A stretch of 64,000 nucleotides of DNA from contig NZ_CP139247.1 of the NCBI RefSeq assembly GCF_034087045.1, forward strand, positions 4,366,001-4,430,000, given 5' to 3'. This document shows positions 9,121 to 16,538 of this stretch, piece after piece (within the stretch, counting starts at the first letter, position 1; every line of letters begins with the position of its first letter). The notes under the pieces are model-generated. The model saw only the letters and a program-made list of their open reading frames with translations, did not search any database and was not told the DNA's origin. The stretch is from Chitinophaga sancti. GTDB lineage: Bacteria > Bacteroidota > Bacteroidia > Chitinophagales > Chitinophagaceae. Made by a program: the position numbers and the translations under genes.

Positions 9121-10305
9121 ATGGACATCGCTAACCTAAGGGCAGATACACCCGGCTGCCAGACCAAAGTACACTTTAATAATTCCGGCGCTGCTTTACC
9201 ACCTTACCCGGTATTGCAGGCCATGCAGGATTATCTTGCTGAAGAAGCTAATTTTGGAGGTTATGAAACAGCGGCAGCCAATGCAACTGCCCTCAACCGT
9301 TTTTACCTGGCCGCAGGAAGATTGCTGAATGCTTCTGCAAAGAATATTGCATTTACCAGCAGCGCGACAAACAGTTTTGCGCGGGCGCTTTCGTGCATTC
9401 CATTTAAGAAGGGAGATGTGGTGGTGATTGCCAATGAAGATTATGCGAGTAACCAGTTGCAGTTCCTTTCGCTGGAAGAGCGGTTTGGGATAGAGCTGGT
9501 ACGCGCACATAGTATGCCGGAAGGTGGTGTGGATGTGGATCACATGGCATCATTAATTCGGGATAGAAATCCCAGGCTCGTGTCACTCACCCACGTTCCT
9601 TCAAATACCGGTTTGATCCAGCCTGTGGCAGAAATAGGAAAAGTATGCCGTGAGCTGGACATCCCTTATCTGGTAGATGCGTGTCAGTCAGCCGGACAAT
9701 TACCATTGGATGTAGAAGAAATAGGGTGTGATTTCCTTTGTGCTACGCTGCGTAAATACCTGCGTGGACCAAGGGGTGCGGGATTTTTGTATGTGTCTGA
9801 CAGGATATTGCATAAACCCTGGTATCCGTTGTTTTTAGATATGTATGCAGCTACCTGGACGGATGATGATACCTTCGTTCCGGCATCAGATGCAAAACGC
9901 TTTCAGGACTGGGAGCAGTCTTATGCATTGATAGCAGGTGGTTATGCCGCTGTACATTATGCCAATGAAATCGGGTTACAAAATATTGCGGACCGGAATA
10001 AATACCTGTGCGGGTTGTTGCGTCCACGGTTGGAATCCCTGCCGGGTGTAACACTGTTGGATAAAGGAAAGGAACTGGCCAGTATCATCACCCTGTCTGC
10101 ACCGGTCAGTGATCCGCAATGGCTGTTGACTTCACTGCGTGAGCGAAATATAAATACAGCCATTAGCGTTACATCCAGTGCGTTGATCGATTTTAAATCA
10201 AAGGGTGTGAACTGGGCGCTGCGCATATCTCCGCATTATTACAATACGGAAGATGAAATTGATATTTTGCTGGATGCGCTGGAGTCAATATTTGCGAACC
10301 CATAA
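9121..10305 (+). CDS. Class V PLP-dependent aminotransferase-fold enzyme (EgtE-like candidate)
   Basis: The 394-residue PLP enzyme is of the cysteine desulfurase/isopenicillin N epimerase class. PLP contacts are visible: D187 and Q189 in VDACQSAGQ, and Schiff-base lysine K212 in ATLRKYLRGPRGAGF. It has no membrane or export signal. It converges on egtD with one shared terminator between them. Known biology: the last step of ergothioneine synthesis, C-S lysis of hercynyl-cysteine sulfoxide, is done by EgtE, a PLP enzyme of this fold. No other EgtE candidate is in the window, so this is the natural one. Alternatives are a kynureninase-like or cysteine-desulfurase-like enzyme. Confidence 0.8.
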   Translation: MDIANLRADTPGCQTKVHFNNSGAALPPYPVLQAMQDYLAEEANFGGYETAAANATALNRFYLAAGRLLNASAKNIAFTSSATNSFARALSCIPFKKGDVVVIANEDYASNQLQFLSLEERFGIELVRAHSMPEGGVDVDHMASLIRDRNPRLVSLTHVPSNTGLIQPVAEIGKVCRELDIPYLVDACQSAGQLPLDVEEIGCDFLCATLRKYLRGPRGAGFLYVSDRILHKPWYPLFLDMYAATWTDDDTFVPASDAKRFQDWEQSYALIAGGYAAVHYANEIGLQNIADRNKYLCGLLRPRLESLPGVTLLDKGKELASIITLSAPVSDPQWLLTSLRERNINTAISVTSSALIDFKSKGVNWALRISPHYYNTEDEIDILLDALESIFANP

Positions 10306-10455: not shown

Positions 10456-11448
10456 TTACGCCTGCCATAAACTATCTACAAACCAGCCTTTCCTGTCCGT
10501 AAAGTGCGCGATGGGCTCAAAGCCTGCCTGTATGGCCAGTTTTTCTGATTCATCCAGACTGTACTTCTGGGAGATCTCCATGAAAATAGTTTCATGCTTT
10601 TTAAACCCGATTGTCTTATTTAAAAGATGCACTTCCTGATCCTCCAGACTCACAAGATAGCTTTTGCAGGCGCCTGTACCCGGATCGTACGTAGGGTAGT
10701 GGTCGAATTTTGACAGGTCAAAATCAGCCTCCATTTCCCTGTTAATCCTGGTGAGGAGGTTCAGGTTAAACTCGCGCGTAATACCTTCTGAATCATTGTA
10801 CGCATTCAGAATAATCTGCGGATGCTTCTTCAGATCGAAACCTGTGAGCAGCATATCGCCGGGTTGTAAATAATTGCGCAGCTGGCGGCAGAACTTACGG
10901 GTTTCTGCAGGGGTGAAGTTGCCGATATTGCCACCCATACATAGTACGACTTTAGGTCTTGCCGATAGTGTCTGTACCATTCGCAGCATCTCGAAATATT
11001 CACCGTGCAGCCCATGTACCTGCAACGCCGGTAGGTGCTCAGGCAGGTTTTGCTCCAGTTGACTGATCACATTTGCACTGATGTCAATGGGGTAGTAAGT
11101 GAAAGAGTGATCTATATGTAGTAATTCCTGTAAGAGGTGTACGGACTTGGTCGCATCGCCTGCACCTAGTTCTACAACATCGAAAGTATCTGTGAGCGAT
11201 GCAATCAGCGCACTGATCTGCGCGGATTGTTCCTGCATAATTTCCATTTCACAATTCGTCGGGTAGTATGCCGGACAAGCCATGATACGCTGAAAGATGC
11301 GGTCTCCGTTGTCATCATAAAAATACTTAGCGTCGAGATATTTATCTTTTGCACTCAATCCCTGCAGTACATCACGATGAAAAACGGGCAATTGTTCCAG
11401 CTTCGGGGTCAATACAGTGAAAGCATTCATTACAGAGGTGGTAGCCAT
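10456..11448 (-). CDS. egtD: L-histidine N-alpha-methyltransferase
   Basis: The 330-residue EgtD family protein trimethylates histidine to hercynine with SAM, the first step of ergothioneine synthesis. The family entry motif is present (KYFYDDNGDRIFQRI...PAYYPTNCE, about 41-66), followed by the SAM site VVELGAGDATKS (91-102) and YPIDIS. It begins 27 bases after egtB and is the last gene of the leftward operon, which ends at the terminator at 10405. No EgtA or EgtC homolog is seen nearby, consistent with the route in which EgtB uses free cysteine. Confidence 0.9.
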   Translation of the reverse strand: MATTSVMNAFTVLTPKLEQLPVFHRDVLQGLSAKDKYLDAKYFYDDNGDRIFQRIMACPAYYPTNCEMEIMQEQSAQISALIASLTDTFDVVELGAGDATKSVHLLQELLHIDHSFTYYPIDISANVISQLEQNLPEHLPALQVHGLHGEYFEMLRMVQTLSARPKVVLCMGGNIGNFTPAETRKFCRQLRNYLQPGDMLLTGFDLKKHPQIILNAYNDSEGITREFNLNLLTRINREMEADFDLSKFDHYPTYDPGTGACKSYLVSLEDQEVHLLNKTIGFKKHETIFMEISQKYSLDESEKLAIQAGFEPIAHFTDRKGWFVDSLWQA

Positions 11449-11475: not shown

Positions 11476-12624
11476 TTATTTAGCTAATCTGATGCCAGTA
11501 TATTGCCATCTCAGTGGCGGATGGAAAAAATTCCGGTAAGTGATCCGGCTATGCCCCGGCGGAGTGACTACAGAGCCGCCTCTCAGCACCATCTGGCTCA
11601 CCATGAACTTTCCGTTATATTCTCCGATTGCGCCGGGTGCTTTTACAAAACCGGGGTAAGGGAGATATGCACTTTCTGTCCATTCCCATCTTTCTCCCCA
11701 CGCCAGTTGTGGCGCGGCGGCTTCCCATTCATTTTCTGTAGGAAGACGCAGCCCTTTCCAGGCCGCGAATGCAGCGGCTTCGTAATAACTGATATGTGCC
11801 AGCGGCATGCTTGGGTCAATGGCCCTGAATCCTTTTAAAGTATAATTCATCCAGTCACCATCTACTTCATGCCAGTAAAGCGGGGCGTTGATGTTGTTGG
11901 TCTTTACCCAGTCCCATCCCTCGGCATGCCAGTGACGGAAGTTCGTGTAGCCGCCGGCCTTCATGAATTCCAGGTATTCAGCGTTCGTGACAAGCGCACT
12001 GCTGATACTGAATTCTTCCAGGTATACCTTGTGCCTGTTCAGTTCGTTGTCAAAGCAGAAACCATCGCCGGTATGACCGATTTCGTAGATGCCTGCCGGG
12101 AAAGCAATGAAATGACTGCTGGCCACCGGCTGCTCTTTGAAGGTGTAGTCCTCCTGGTATGCGGGAAACAAAGGATTGTGACCTAAGATATATTTTATAT
12201 CAGTGACCAGTAATTCCTGGTGCTGTTCTTCATGATTTAATCCTAAAGTGATGAGCGCGTGTAATTCTTTGGATATATTCTGTGCGAGTAATTTACCCAT
12301 TTCGTTATCTACGTATTCCCTATAACGGTATACATCCGCCACACCTGGTCTGCTAAGATTTCCCCGATCTGTACGAATAACTCTCGCACCTACGGATTCA
12401 TAGTAACTATTAAATACAAAGTTGTAATCAGGATTAAATACCTGGTAGCCGTTTAAATTTGGCTGTAATACAAATGTTTCAAAGAACCAGGTAGTATGGC
12501 CTAAATGCCACTTGGGCGGACTCACATCTACCACTGGTTGTACCACATAATCCTCTGTTTGTAAAGGCGCGCATATGCTCACAGATCTTTGGCGCACGGT
12601 GTCGAAAGCTTGCTTTAATTCCAT
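11476..12624 (-). CDS. egtB: Ergothioneine sulfoxide synthase (EgtB)
   Basis: The 382-residue protein has an N-terminal DinB-like domain and a C-terminal formylglycine-generating-enzyme/sulfatase-modifying domain (about 165-382). The non-haem iron ligands are evident: H43 in KWHLGHTTWFFE, then H131 and H135 in NHEEQHQE. EgtB uses O2 and Fe to join hercynine to a cysteine donor. Mycobacterial EgtB takes gamma-glutamylcysteine; other types take cysteine, which fits the lack of egtA/egtC here. There is no fused methyltransferase, so it is not OvoA. Its start overlaps the permease/binding-protein gene by 10 bases, so it is translationally coupled to an importer. Confidence 0.9.
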   Translation of the reverse strand: MELKQAFDTVRQRSVSICAPLQTEDYVVQPVVDVSPPKWHLGHTTWFFETFVLQPNLNGYQVFNPDYNFVFNSYYESVGARVIRTDRGNLSRPGVADVYRYREYVDNEMGKLLAQNISKELHALITLGLNHEEQHQELLVTDIKYILGHNPLFPAYQEDYTFKEQPVASSHFIAFPAGIYEIGHTGDGFCFDNELNRHKVYLEEFSISSALVTNAEYLEFMKAGGYTNFRHWHAEGWDWVKTNNINAPLYWHEVDGDWMNYTLKGFRAIDPSMPLAHISYYEAAAFAAWKGLRLPTENEWEAAAPQLAWGERWEWTESAYLPYPGFVKAPGAIGEYNGKFMVSQMVLRGGSVVTPPGHSRITYRNFFHPPLRWQYTGIRLAK

Positions 12625-14162
12625 TGTAAGTATTTTGTCAGGTCGCTGATAGTCTTAATTTTTAAAGCACTGGCCTGTTGTCTGCGCATCATTAATGCAT
12701 ATGTATTATTGAATCCAACAGGTGCCAGCCATTTGATATGATAGCGTTGTTGAAAGGCCGCTGCCACGTAGTCGTATACTTTATCAGCCTGTCCACCCAA
12801 TGAATCGAGGGTAGACGGAGGTGCCTGTAAGATGACGAGCAGACCGGTACCGGTATATTCCGGGTACAGGTCAATCTGTGCATTTGTGAGTGCTTCAAAG
12901 CAGATCTTAGTACCTCCCAGACCGGTCTTTGTTTCTACATGCAGATCAGTATAACCTTCAACCAGTAATTTGTACATATTTGCGAGGATGTAGCCGTCAC
13001 CAAAGATCTTGGCGCCAATGCGGATCGTACCTTTTGTACCCGTTCCGGGTGATCGCAGCAAGTGGTGGGCATCGAGAAACTCCTTAGCAACAACAGCCGG
13101 AGACTGTTTTAAAATATCTACCCGGTAATTCAAGGCTGTCATGATACTATCATTAATTGTACCAGACAGTTTATCGAGCGCAGGGGCCAGTTCGGGGTAT
13201 TTGTCAAGCACTTCCAGTCTCACAATTGGTGCGGCGTAATAAGGCGGGAATATGTGTTTGTCATCCTGTAATACCTGCAGGTCATACGCTTTTACACGGC
13301 CATCGGTACTGCTGCCGCTGATCACGTCTACCTTTTTGTCGTAAGCGGCTTTGTACATGATCATATCGCTGATCACTACGGTACGGATTTTTAATCCATA
13401 GATCTTTTTTAAACCTACATCTCCATCATTCCGCCCCATGAATTCAGGTGTAAAGCCTGCCAGCAATTTAGAACCATAAAAGTCAGGAAGCAGGTAAAAA
13501 GAAGATAGTACCAATATCAGCAACGGCATCAGGAACACCTTGCGGAATCTGATGCGGGAGAGGCCCCAGTCGAATAAAATAGCGAGCAATGCAGCAGGAA
13601 TGGCACCAGCCAGGATCATGTTCGTGTTGTTGAGCGCGATACCACCGAAAATAAATTCCCCTAAGCCACCGGCAGCAATGTAGGCAGCGAGGGTAGCGAC
13701 GCCAACATTGATCACGGTAGCGGTTCTTACGCCTGCCAGTAGCACAGGCATGGCAAGTGGTAGTTGTACCTTAAATAATAATTGACGTGGGCTCATGCCA
13801 ATACCGGTCGCAGCTTCGATAACGGCGGGATCCACCTGTATGATCCCTGTATAGGTATTGCGTACAATGGGCAATAGCGCATACAAAAATAACGCGACGA
13901 TAGCTGGTAAAGGGCCGATGCCTAACAGGGGAATCATGAAGCCTAAAAGGGCAATACTGGGGATGGTTTGTATGACCCCTGCAATGCCCAATACAGCACC
14001 TGCCATTTTAGTCCTGCGGGTGATGAGGATACCCAGGGGCACACCAATCACAACGGCGATCAACAAAGAGATAAAGGTAAGGCCGATATGTTGCAGGGTT
14101 TGTTCCAGTATTTTGCCGGATTCCTGCTGTAGAAAGTCAATAAAGCTGTTAGCTGGTTCCAT
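12615..14162 (-). CDS. ABC importer permease fused to a circularly permuted substrate-binding domain (EgtU-like)
   Basis: Of 515 residues, 1-205 are a ProW/OpuB-type permease with the EAA loop at 116-148, and a further membrane anchor lies near 208-227. The rest is an OpuC/EgtU-type binding domain in rotated order. Segments that normally lie second come first (AGFTPEF near 235-241, STDGRVKAYDLQVLQDDK near 285-302, FPPYYAAP, LNYRVD, VVAKEFLDAHH to 367). Then, after a short SPGTGTKG linker, come segments that normally open the domain (TIRIGAKI at 379, YPEYTGTG at 433-440, FNNTYAL at 484-490, TISDL at 504-508). The gene overlaps the ATPase (14 bases) and egtB (10 bases). Fusion transporters of this kind include EgtU for ergothioneine and betaine importers. 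The egt coupling favours ergothioneine or hercynine, but the ligand is inferred. Confidence 0.88.
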   Translation of the reverse strand: MEPANSFIDFLQQESGKILEQTLQHIGLTFISLLIAVVIGVPLGILITRRTKMAGAVLGIAGVIQTIPSIALLGFMIPLLGIGPLPAIVALFLYALLPIVRNTYTGIIQVDPAVIEAATGIGMSPRQLLFKVQLPLAMPVLLAGVRTATVINVGVATLAAYIAAGGLGEFIFGGIALNNTNMILAGAIPAALLAILFDWGLSRIRFRKVFLMPLLILVLSSFYLLPDFYGSKLLAGFTPEFMGRNDGDVGLKKIYGLKIRTVVISDMIMYKAAYDKKVDVISGSSTDGRVKAYDLQVLQDDKHIFPPYYAAPIVRLEVLDKYPELAPALDKLSGTINDSIMTALNYRVDILKQSPAVVAKEFLDAHHLLRSPGTGTKGTIRIGAKIFGDGYILANMYKLLVEGYTDLHVETKTGLGGTKICFEALTNAQIDLYPEYTGTGLLVILQAPPSTLDSLGGQADKVYDYVAAAFQQRYHIKWLAPVGFNNTYALMMRRQQASALKIKTISDLTKYLQWN

Positions 14163-15048
14163 GCATATGTTTAGATTGCCTGTACTGGTCTACGGCATCC
14201 AGCAGTGTATTGCGGGGCATGCCGGCGGCGATGGCGTCCCATATGGTCAGGGTATCATTGCCATTGATTGGCGCTAACCATGGCCGGATGTCGGCGATAG
14301 TGAGTGCTTTCAGTTCCAGTACAAAGCGGTGTTCATCAAAAAAGGCTTTGACAAAGTCATTAGCGGGTGAAAATAAGAGTGCTGCAGGTGTGCCGGTTTG
14401 CTGTACTTTACCTTTGTCCATGAGGCAGATTTTCGTGCCCAGTTCAAAAGCTTCCTGCACATCATGAGTAACCATGATGATGGTTTTGGATTGTATTTCG
14501 TCGAGTGCGCGAAATTCTTTTCTTACGCTGGCGCGGGTCACGGGGTCCAGTGCGCCAAAGGGTTCATCCATGAGCAATACGGGAGGGTCTGCGGCGAGTG
14601 CGCGGGCAAGACCTACACGTTGTTGCTGTCCGCCACTAAGTTGTTGCGGATAGGCATGGAGGAAATCGGAAACGGGGAGATGGAGTTTCTCCATCAATGC
14701 CGCCACTCTCGATGCAATGCGACCTGCATCCCACCGGAGCAGACCGGGTACCACGCCTATGTTTTCACCTACGGTGTAGTGAGGGAAGAGACCATGATAT
14801 TGGAGTACGTAACCGATGCCTCTTCTCAGGGATTCCAGTTGTTGGGATAATACGGATTGACCGTTTACAAATATATTCCCACTGTCTGGCGATATAAGGC
14901 GGTTGATCATTCTGAGTGTGGTAGTTTTCCCACTTCCACTGGTGCCCAGCAGTATGAGTGTTTCTCCTGCATTCACTTCGAATGATACAGCAGAAACGGC
15001 GGGCTTACCGTTGAGGAATGACTTGCTCACATTTTCCAGTTTGATCAT
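14149..15048 (-). CDS. ABC importer ATPase (EgtV/OpuA-like)
   Basis: The 299-residue ATPase has Walker A GTSGSGKTT (35-43), Q-loop in YVLQYHG, signature LSGGQQQR (137-144), Walker B VLLMDEP (157-163) and switch H195 in VTHD. A tail of about 60 residues follows that does not look like the paired CBS domains of osmosensing OpuCA-type ATPases. It energises the permease/binding fusion, which starts 14 bases inside this gene. The absence of CBS domains argues mildly against osmotic control and fits an EgtV-like role. It is the first gene of the tightly overlapping part of the operon. Confidence 0.9.
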   Translation of the reverse strand: MIKLENVSKSFLNGKPAVSAVSFEVNAGETLILLGTSGSGKTTTLRMINRLISPDSGNIFVNGQSVLSQQLESLRRGIGYVLQYHGLFPHYTVGENIGVVPGLLRWDAGRIASRVAALMEKLHLPVSDFLHAYPQQLSGGQQQRVGLARALAADPPVLLMDEPFGALDPVTRASVRKEFRALDEIQSKTIIMVTHDVQEAFELGTKICLMDKGKVQQTGTPAALLFSPANDFVKAFFDEHRFVLELKALTIADIRPWLAPINGNDTLTIWDAIAAGMPRNTLLDAVDQYRQSKHMHGTS

Positions 15049-15127: not shown

Positions 15128-16507
15128 TTATTTTGTAATGGTCATGAAAAGATTGTTCAATGATTCTGTGTACAGCGGGTGCGCGAAGATCATTTCCCGG
15201 ATCTGTGTAGCGGTCATGCCGGCCATCATGGCGATTTGTAGTACGCTCATGATCTCACCGCCATTATGGCCTAAGATGGCGGCGCCTAAGATCCTGCCTG
15301 TTGACTTTTCGACCACTGCTTTCATAAATCCATCTGTGTGTCCTGTTTCAATGGCGCGGGCTACTTTTGACATATCCAGGCAGGCTACCTGGATATCGAT
15401 GCCCTGTTTGCGTGCTTCCTTCTCCGTTAGTCCTATTCTGCCTAATTGCGGATCGGTAAATACGCAATAGGGGACAGGTCTGCCGGTAGTGGTTTCGTTC
15501 TTTTTTTCTACAAGATTTTTGAGCAGAATTAAATGATCATTGTAGGAAATATGTGTAAATGCCGGACCACCTTTTACATCTCCAAGGGCATAGATGCCGG
15601 GTACAGAAGTTTCCAGTTTTTCATTCACAGGAATGAAACCTTTTTCGTCGGTAGTGATGCCGGTAGTATCTAAGTGTAATTCCTTTGTCTGCGGTGTACG
15701 GCCGGAAGCGACGAGTATATGAGAGCCGGTGACGGTGATACTTTCACCATCGGCATTCAGCACGATCCTCACGGCATCGCCGGCGGCTTCAATTTGTTTG
15801 ATAGTCGCACCTGTATGTACTTTGATGCCAGCCCTTTCCATGATCTTTTTCATGGCGGCCGATACATCTTCATCCTCTCTTTTCAGCAAAGTAGAGCGTT
15901 CGATAATCGTGACCTGGCAACCAAACCGGCGGAACATTTGTCCGAATTCCAAACCAATATAACTGCCACCCAGTACGATGAGGTGGGAGGGAAGGGTTTG
16001 CAGGTCCAGTAAAGTCGTATTGGTAAGATAGGGTACCTGGGCAAGGCCGGGAATATCCGGGACCTTTGGGGAAGTACCTGTATTGATAAAGATATGATCG
16101 GCTGTAATGGTTTCGGAGGTGCCGGTTCTCAGTTTTATATCCACTGTTTTAGGGCCGTTAAAGCTGGCAGTGCCATAGAAAATAGTGACCCCATCCGTAT
16201 TTTCCAGCCCTTTGGTAGCCCCGCCTCTGAAGGAGGCGACGATCTCATTTTTGCGGGCCACGATTTTTTCAAAGTCGGGTTGAAAACCGGACACAATGAT
16301 CCCCCATTGCCTGCTGTTGGCCACAGTATGTGCTGCTTCGGCACAGGCAATCATTGCTTTTGTGGGAGTGCATCCATCATTGATGCAGGTACCGCCTATC
16401 CATCGTTTTTCTATAATGGCTGTTTTCCAGCCAGCCTTTGCCAGTTTTTTTGCCAGGGGAACTCCTCCCTGACCAGAACCAATGACGATCGCATCAAATT
16501 TTTGCAT
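15128..16507 (-). CDS. FAD-dependent pyridine nucleotide-disulfide oxidoreductase
   Basis: The protein has 459 residues from the preferred ATG at 16507; an in-frame ATG at 16534 adds nine unlikely residues. FAD site GSGQGG (10-15), redox disulfide C41-x4-C46 in GGTCINDGCTPTK, an NAD(P) site (VLGGSYIGLEFG), a second FAD motif (YALGDVKGG) and the dimerisation domain with a C-terminal HPLYTE are visible. Homologs are often called mercuric reductase, but it lacks the N-terminal HMA domain and the C-terminal Cys pair of MerA. The same family contains glutathione and mycothione reductases. Upstream of and co-directional with the egt/importer genes, it may reduce a low-molecular-weight disulfide; this is inference. 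Confidence 0.88.
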   Translation of the reverse strand: MQKFDAIVIGSGQGGVPLAKKLAKAGWKTAIIEKRWIGGTCINDGCTPTKAMIACAEAAHTVANSRQWGIIVSGFQPDFEKIVARKNEIVASFRGGATKGLENTDGVTIFYGTASFNGPKTVDIKLRTGTSETITADHIFINTGTSPKVPDIPGLAQVPYLTNTTLLDLQTLPSHLIVLGGSYIGLEFGQMFRRFGCQVTIIERSTLLKREDEDVSAAMKKIMERAGIKVHTGATIKQIEAAGDAVRIVLNADGESITVTGSHILVASGRTPQTKELHLDTTGITTDEKGFIPVNEKLETSVPGIYALGDVKGGPAFTHISYNDHLILLKNLVEKKNETTTGRPVPYCVFTDPQLGRIGLTEKEARKQGIDIQVACLDMSKVARAIETGHTDGFMKAVVEKSTGRILGAAILGHNGGEIMSVLQIAMMAGMTATQIREMIFAHPLYTESLNNLFMTITK

Positions 16508-16538
16508 TCCCGGGTTTTTAGTAAGTAGGATCAATGGG

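Follow-up and report, generated by a model that had tools for sequence, protein, structure and literature searches.

The substrate-binding domain (SBD) of a permease fusion in Chitinophaga sancti is an EgtU/AfProX-type domain that is truly circularly permuted, its C-half preceding its N-half. The fusion gene lies within the window, the whole stretch of 64,000 nucleotides that was analysed, and its product is best read as part of a permuted, working importer of the betaine type, a reading to which a probability of about 80% is assigned; the steps that concern the tether and the cargo are weaker than this. In window coordinates, the gene and its parts are:

12615..14162, minus strand: permease/substrate-binding fusion, 515 aa, in the order transmembrane domain (TMD), SBD C-half, SBD N-half (T-C-N); open reading frame and translation, PF00528 and a split PF04069
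13563..14162, minus strand: TMD core, residues 1-200 (BPD_transp_1; Pfam match at residues 40-199)
13482..13538, minus strand: further hydrophobic segment, residues 209-227, with a 19-residue hydropathy peak of 1.97
13470..13481, minus strand: tether of only four residues (228-231) from the last membrane segment (by hydropathy) to the first SBD match
13053..13469, minus strand: SBD C-half, residues 232-370, corresponding to positions 138-276 of the EgtUC chain (phmmer; Pfam profile 114-256); begins inside lobe D2 and continues into D1
13029..13052, minus strand: 8-residue linker, residues 371-378, from the old C-terminus to the old N-terminus (gap between the two phmmer matches)
12627..13028, minus strand: SBD N-half, residues 379-512, corresponding to positions 7-134 of the EgtUC chain (phmmer; Pfam profile 2-113); lobe D1, the crossing and the first D2 helix

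With a BPD_transp_1 TMD and an SBD in one chain and an ATPase gene alongside, the fusion has the domains of a type I ABC importer with a fused SBD, of which it would be the TMD-SBD subunit. Its coordinates are borne out, as domain residues 231-515 translate from window positions 12618-13472 on the minus strand, followed by the stop codon at 12615-12617. The chain is thought to cross to the outside at residues 209-227.

The PF04069 (OpuAC) match of the fusion reaches 186.1 bits, against a curated cut-off of 21.2, and falls into two stretches. The best of these in a Pfam scan places residues 232-364 on profile positions 114-256, and in a profile search of the own genome positions 2-113 lie downstream of it in the chain. 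The same arrangement is found with phmmer against S. pneumoniae EgtUC, in which fusion residues 232-370 match chain positions 138-276 and residues 379-510 match positions 7-134; only three EgtUC residues (135-137) fall between the two matched stretches, so that little was lost at the cut. Each half thus occurs once, both align to one canonical domain, and their order is exchanged, which is the pattern of a circular permutant. The domain was also aligned, at every tenth rotation and with 20 shuffles per comparison, to canonical domains from E. faecalis, Niallia, Fusobacteria and Synechocystis; this gave native-order scores of 297, 281, 253 and 214, respectively, and best rotated scores of 507, 492, 475 and 398, the shuffled maximum being 41 over all four and at most 31 for the 507/297 comparison. 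Three of the four canonical comparison domains were scanned with Pfam (L100, L099 and L102), and each shows a single uninterrupted match. An AlphaFold2 model of the SBD from a 62-sequence alignment is confident (pLDDT 92.6, pTM 0.88) and keeps the fold. On structure comparison, good matches to EgtU, AfProX and the choline-type sensors cover just one half at a time (133-149 columns, 34-47% identity), and B. subtilis OpuAC matches in order over 241-248 residues at 16% identity. Together, the Pfam, phmmer, rotation and AlphaFold results back the original prediction of a circular permutation in which the old termini are fused by a short Gly-rich linker.

A Pfam match that comes in two pieces might also be produced by two repeats, or by halves fused from two different binding proteins. 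Such an origin is exceedingly improbable, as the halves are single-copy and both align over their full extent with the same solved chains, the nearest solved relatives are identical for both, and the two yield one coherent predicted model. A rearrangement introduced by sequencing or assembly, or gene decay, has a similarly negligible chance: the order is identical at 40 loci in other assemblies and in the 313 homologues listed from three queries (best 120 of about 8000 matches per query), the frame is open, the pocket residues are conserved and the model is confident. An assembly rearrangement inside the gene, the alternative that had been named at the outset, is excluded by the independent assemblies that carry the same order, and the further claim of rearrangement and not decay stands.

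The position of the cut differs from what had been expected. EgtU numbering is the EgtUC chain number plus 229 (K242 of EgtU at chain position 13), and the available sections of PMC9732360 assign residues 233-331 plus 445-506 to D1 and 341-432 to D2. The new ends fall between EgtU residues 363 and 367, about 22 residues past the first interlobe crossing, and hence inside D2, after its first helix, and not at the crossing itself, where they had been placed in the original prediction. After permutation, D2 is discontinuous and carries both termini, and D1 is continuous. The linker between the half models is 8 residues long in 283 of 314 proteins and 7-11 in 306; in eight proteins it is longer, at 14-76 residues, and these include P0251-P0254, whose loops are of low complexity and 64-76 residues long, and P0313 with a loop of 43. 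Some of these loops (43-76 residues) resemble translated repeat elements, and they sit exactly at the junction of the old ends. Since it accepts such inserts, the linker loop is probably exposed and not functional, as fused termini predict.

The permuted order is common to all 40 loci found by a search of genome contigs, of which 37 are named Chitinophaga or [Flexibacter] and one each Flavihumibacter, Chitinophagaceae and Pedobacter; one locus (L037) is cut at its N-terminal end. Of 195 genomes in the own family, 26 gave a match, which was full-length in 25 (the own genome included) and a fragment in one. Across 395 genomes of the phylum, 79 matched, and classification of these rows by hand gave 22 with T-C-N order (own genome included; G503, one of these, matched as two collinear pieces), 31 in which one or more SBD pieces precede the TMD, and 26 with a weak TMD match only (36% identity or less); none of the 79 shows the order TMD-N-C. 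All 12 loci fetched from the 31 have the order N-C-TMD, a third architecture in Bacteroidota in which a canonical SBD precedes the TMD (L127-L138, e.g., L127 5953-7431). The L127 protein has a signal-peptide-like start, and N-C-TMD order is also found in Gemmatirosa (L101). Protein searches with three queries (the window protein, a deep Bacteroidota member and a Thermodesulfobacteriota-labelled member) listed 313 different homologues, and with the window protein all 314 are permuted (311 T-C-N and three T-T-C-N), a count drawn from the best 120 of about 8000 matches per T-C-N query that speaks for these closest relatives. Their source labels comprise Bacteroidota, Cyanobacteria, Melainabacteria, KSB1, Aminicenantes, Scalinduaceae, Thermodesulfobacteriota and Balneolales, several of the sources being metagenome bins. 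The three T-T-C-N proteins (P0063, P0082 and P0127; 779-805 aa) are double-TMD fusions that apparently hold both permease halves and a permuted SBD in one chain.

In a tree built on the re-ordered SBD halves, the 28 T-C-N domains tested, all from Bacteroidota, are set apart from the rest by a single branch (97/97). With the TMD by itself, the T-C-N rows do not come out as a single group (2 changes), but a tree in which they do is not rejected (AU p 0.38). The EgtU/AfProX-type SBD was probably permuted once in this lineage and then inherited.

The T-C-N permutation, real and widespread, is of a known kind and not a first, as permutation has already been seen in B. subtilis OpuAC. The original claim that no permuted domain had been described in the family was therefore too strong: B. 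subtilis OpuAC belongs to the same Pfam family and has the same order, and the available part of PMC2395249 (2008) describes permutation among the glycine-betaine-binding proteins 2B4L, 1R9L and 1SW1. The claim survives for the EgtU/OpuC/AfProX branch, as an open-access literature search with partial listings found no description of permutation in that branch or in a membrane-fused form; in PMC2861598, on L. lactis OpuAC, no word begins with permut- or swap-. A Pfam scan showed that an OpuA-type binding protein of L. plantarum (L143) is permuted at the same profile position, and this protein aligns as one stretch with B. subtilis OpuAC 2B4L and as two with L. lactis OpuAC 3L6G/7AHC. Canonical order by Pfam is found in E. 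coli ProX, E. faecium OpuABC and the Azospirillum, Listeria innocua, Natranaerobius, Rhizobium and Sinorhizobium proteins.

The T-C-N domain shares its order with the B. subtilis OpuAC type, and T-C-N and permuted OpuA proteins are cut in one and the same loop, which follows the helix bearing the (S/D)DL motif. Shared order and a nearly identical cut site are what descent from a single event would leave. Descent of this kind is nevertheless very unlikely, as the T-C-N domain falls outside the OpuA clade. In an extended tree on re-ordered halves, to which eight OpuA-type proteins were added (16 T-C-N rows, from Bacteroidota only, and one permuted OpuA row), the 16 T-C-N rows group together (99/97) on the EgtU/AfProX side, and the permuted L. 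plantarum row lies inside the OpuA clade (100/100), where canonical relatives from E. faecium and L. innocua are its neighbours (89/86). Grouping the permuted OpuA row with T-C-N lowers the log-likelihood by 185 and is rejected by the AU test (p 5e-78), in a tree whose two sides are separated by a branch of 4.1 changes per column and with canonical order assumed to be ancestral. The T-C-N permutation is thus apparently independent of that in OpuAC, judging from one permuted OpuA row.

The binding pocket was surveyed over 207 T-C-N sequences, a set drawn from listed protein homologues and from genome loci that includes duplicates and many close relatives. Equivalents of EgtU K242, Y341, E375, R379 and Y443 are present in 207 of 207, and those of T275, T296 and N339 in 205; position 293 is Tyr and position 337 is Phe throughout (207/207), and position 244 is Phe in 203. 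Position 419 is Ser in 129 of the 207 (mainly Chitinophaga relatives, the window protein included), Tyr in 76 and Thr in 2. The idea that all motifs are intact accordingly holds for nearly all of them, the exception being the cage tyrosine Y419, the equivalent of which is a Ser at residue 284 (window 13311-13313). This Ser might free space next to the position-244 Phe. According to the available sections of PMC9732360, the ergothioneine carboxylate is held in EgtU by K242, T296 and R379, and since their equivalents are kept, a carboxylated betaine is the likely cargo as far as sequence can tell. The same sections name G244 and the F293/Y337 pair as EgtU determinants, and report that SpEgtU G244F binds ergothioneine about 100-fold more weakly. 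The window protein has F387, Y436 and F484 at positions 244, 293 and 337 in place of the SpEgtU signature (G244 with F293/Y337), and the T-C-N order in place of the canonical TMD-N-C of EgtU. H. pylori EgtU (8DP7, with ergothioneine by its title) has Ser at 244 and Tyr/Phe at 293/337, as read by eye. Because it has the same Tyr/Phe pair, the AfProX-like pattern weakens the case for ergothioneine but leaves it possible.

The neighbouring genes bear on which betaine this might be:

14149..15048, minus strand: ATPase subunit (PF00005), overlapping the fusion gene by 14 bases; proV subfamily TIGR01186 at 271.5 bits, below the cut-off of 326.6
11476..12624, minus strand: egtB (TIGR03440 at 548.7 bits, cut-off 360), overlapping the fusion gene by 10 bases
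10456..11448, minus strand: egtD (PF10017, E 1.3e-99; TIGR03438 at 288.7 bits, just under the cut-off of 290.9)

As egtB and egtD stand in one run with the fusion gene, the cargo is probably ergothioneine or its precursor hercynine, a suggestion drawn from gene context. The alternative, an importer that takes up glycine or proline betaine as an ordinary osmoprotectant and is associated with egtB/egtD for regulatory reasons or incidentally, is a possible but less favoured one. It fits the AfProX-like residues at 244, 293 and 337, the naming of many listed homologues as osmoprotectant permeases by their sources, and the fact that the fusion is the only PF04069 protein that a profile search found in its own genome. 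It is harder to reconcile with the overlap of the genes here, with the Tyr/Phe pair that H. pylori EgtU, solved with ergothioneine (8DP7), shares at 293/337, and with the presence of egtB and egtD within about 6 kb in 53 of 60 T-C-N loci (7 of 60 are without the pair). The pair is found in 39 of the 40 contig-search loci, nearly all Chitinophaga, and in 14 of 20 further T-C-N loci chosen by hand for spread from 45 other family and phylum genomes; it is near 3 of the 12 N-C-TMD loci, at 33-47% identity. Two further genes flank the run. A gene resembling FAD-dependent disulfide oxidoreductases (15128-16534, same strand) adjoins the ATPase gene, has relatives near the fusion in 38 of the 40 contig-search loci, and is possibly linked to ergothioneine redox. 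On the other strand, a class V aminotransferase/cysteine-desulfurase-like gene (9121-10305) adjoins egtD; it scores far below the EgtE family cut-off, and an EgtE role is possible.

A cut between the first D2 helix and the next strand, together with the 8-residue junction, would exchange the roles of the lobes, D1 becoming the continuous lobe and D2 carrying both chain ends. The model suggests that fold and cleft are kept, and the domain should still close on a quaternary amine. What would change is the tether, the last membrane helix entering D2 instead of D1. In the available sections of PMC11065425, the docked SBD of OpuA meets one TMD subunit with one lobe and the second subunit with the other, and its linker has a length of 11 residues. 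Since a docked SBD would meet its two TMDs by different lobes and the tether is short, anchoring through D2 should, by analogy, exchange the lobe that lies over the SBD's own TMD and leave the docked complex unchanged; the change may have been fixable because the two-fold symmetry of the TMD pair would leave that complex unharmed. A more comprehensive account is put forward only tentatively and is, as a whole, doubtful: that the permutation arose at least twice at one D2 loop in the Pfam family, that in T-C-N proteins it acts as a tether switch, moving the anchor between lobes and exchanging the lobe docked on the own TMD, and that the importer recaptures ergothioneine or hercynine from its own operon.

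The TMD-N-C, N-C-TMD and TMD-C-N forms offer a large natural comparison for asking whether the anchoring lobe of a fused SBD matters. A second, apparently independent permutation at the same loop suggests a preferred permutation site of this pseudo-symmetric two-lobe fold, which may be of use for sensor design. Family rules and alignments that depend on order can misplace the T-C-N group, which points to a candidate betaine-type importer in bacteria with ergothioneine-synthesis genes.

Of the known systems, B. subtilis OpuAC is a binding protein that is not fused to a permease, and A. fulgidus ProX is a separate binding protein. B. subtilis OpuAC (2B4L/2B4M) and L. plantarum L143 are like the SBD of the fusion in their permuted order, nearly the same cut and Pfam family; the B. 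subtilis domain is 16% identical to it, and the L. plantarum protein stands alone, unlike the permease-fused SBD here. A. fulgidus ProX (1SW1/1SW2) has the canonical order (one stretch with canonical queries), unlike the fusion, and one of its halves matches the fusion's SBD structurally at 36% identity; at EgtU positions 244, 293 and 337 it has the same residues as the fusion, its own being those given in the available sections of PMC9732360. The OpuA of L. lactis and E. faecium (OpuABC; 7AHC, 3L6G) shares with the fusion a TMD-SBD chain with an anchoring helix and a short linker, but is canonical in order, and its SBD is too dissimilar to be detected by sequence from the fusion, of which only the TMD matched 7AHC. 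From hydrophobic segment to SBD, the tether is about 4 residues in the fusion versus about 8 in the E. faecalis EgtU-type protein. S. pneumoniae EgtU (EgtUBC; SBD 7TXL/7TXK, PMC9732360) is, like the fusion, a TMD-SBD protein with a separate ATPase gene, both of its SBD halves match those of the fusion, and most of the cage and carboxylate-contact residues are common to the two. The fusion differs from it in the swapped SBD halves, in the replacement of G244 by Phe, F293 by Tyr, Y337 by Phe and Y419 by Ser, and in its neighbourhood: it adjoins egtB/egtD, whereas the available sections of PMC9732360 put EgtU forward for cells that are unable to make ergothioneine.
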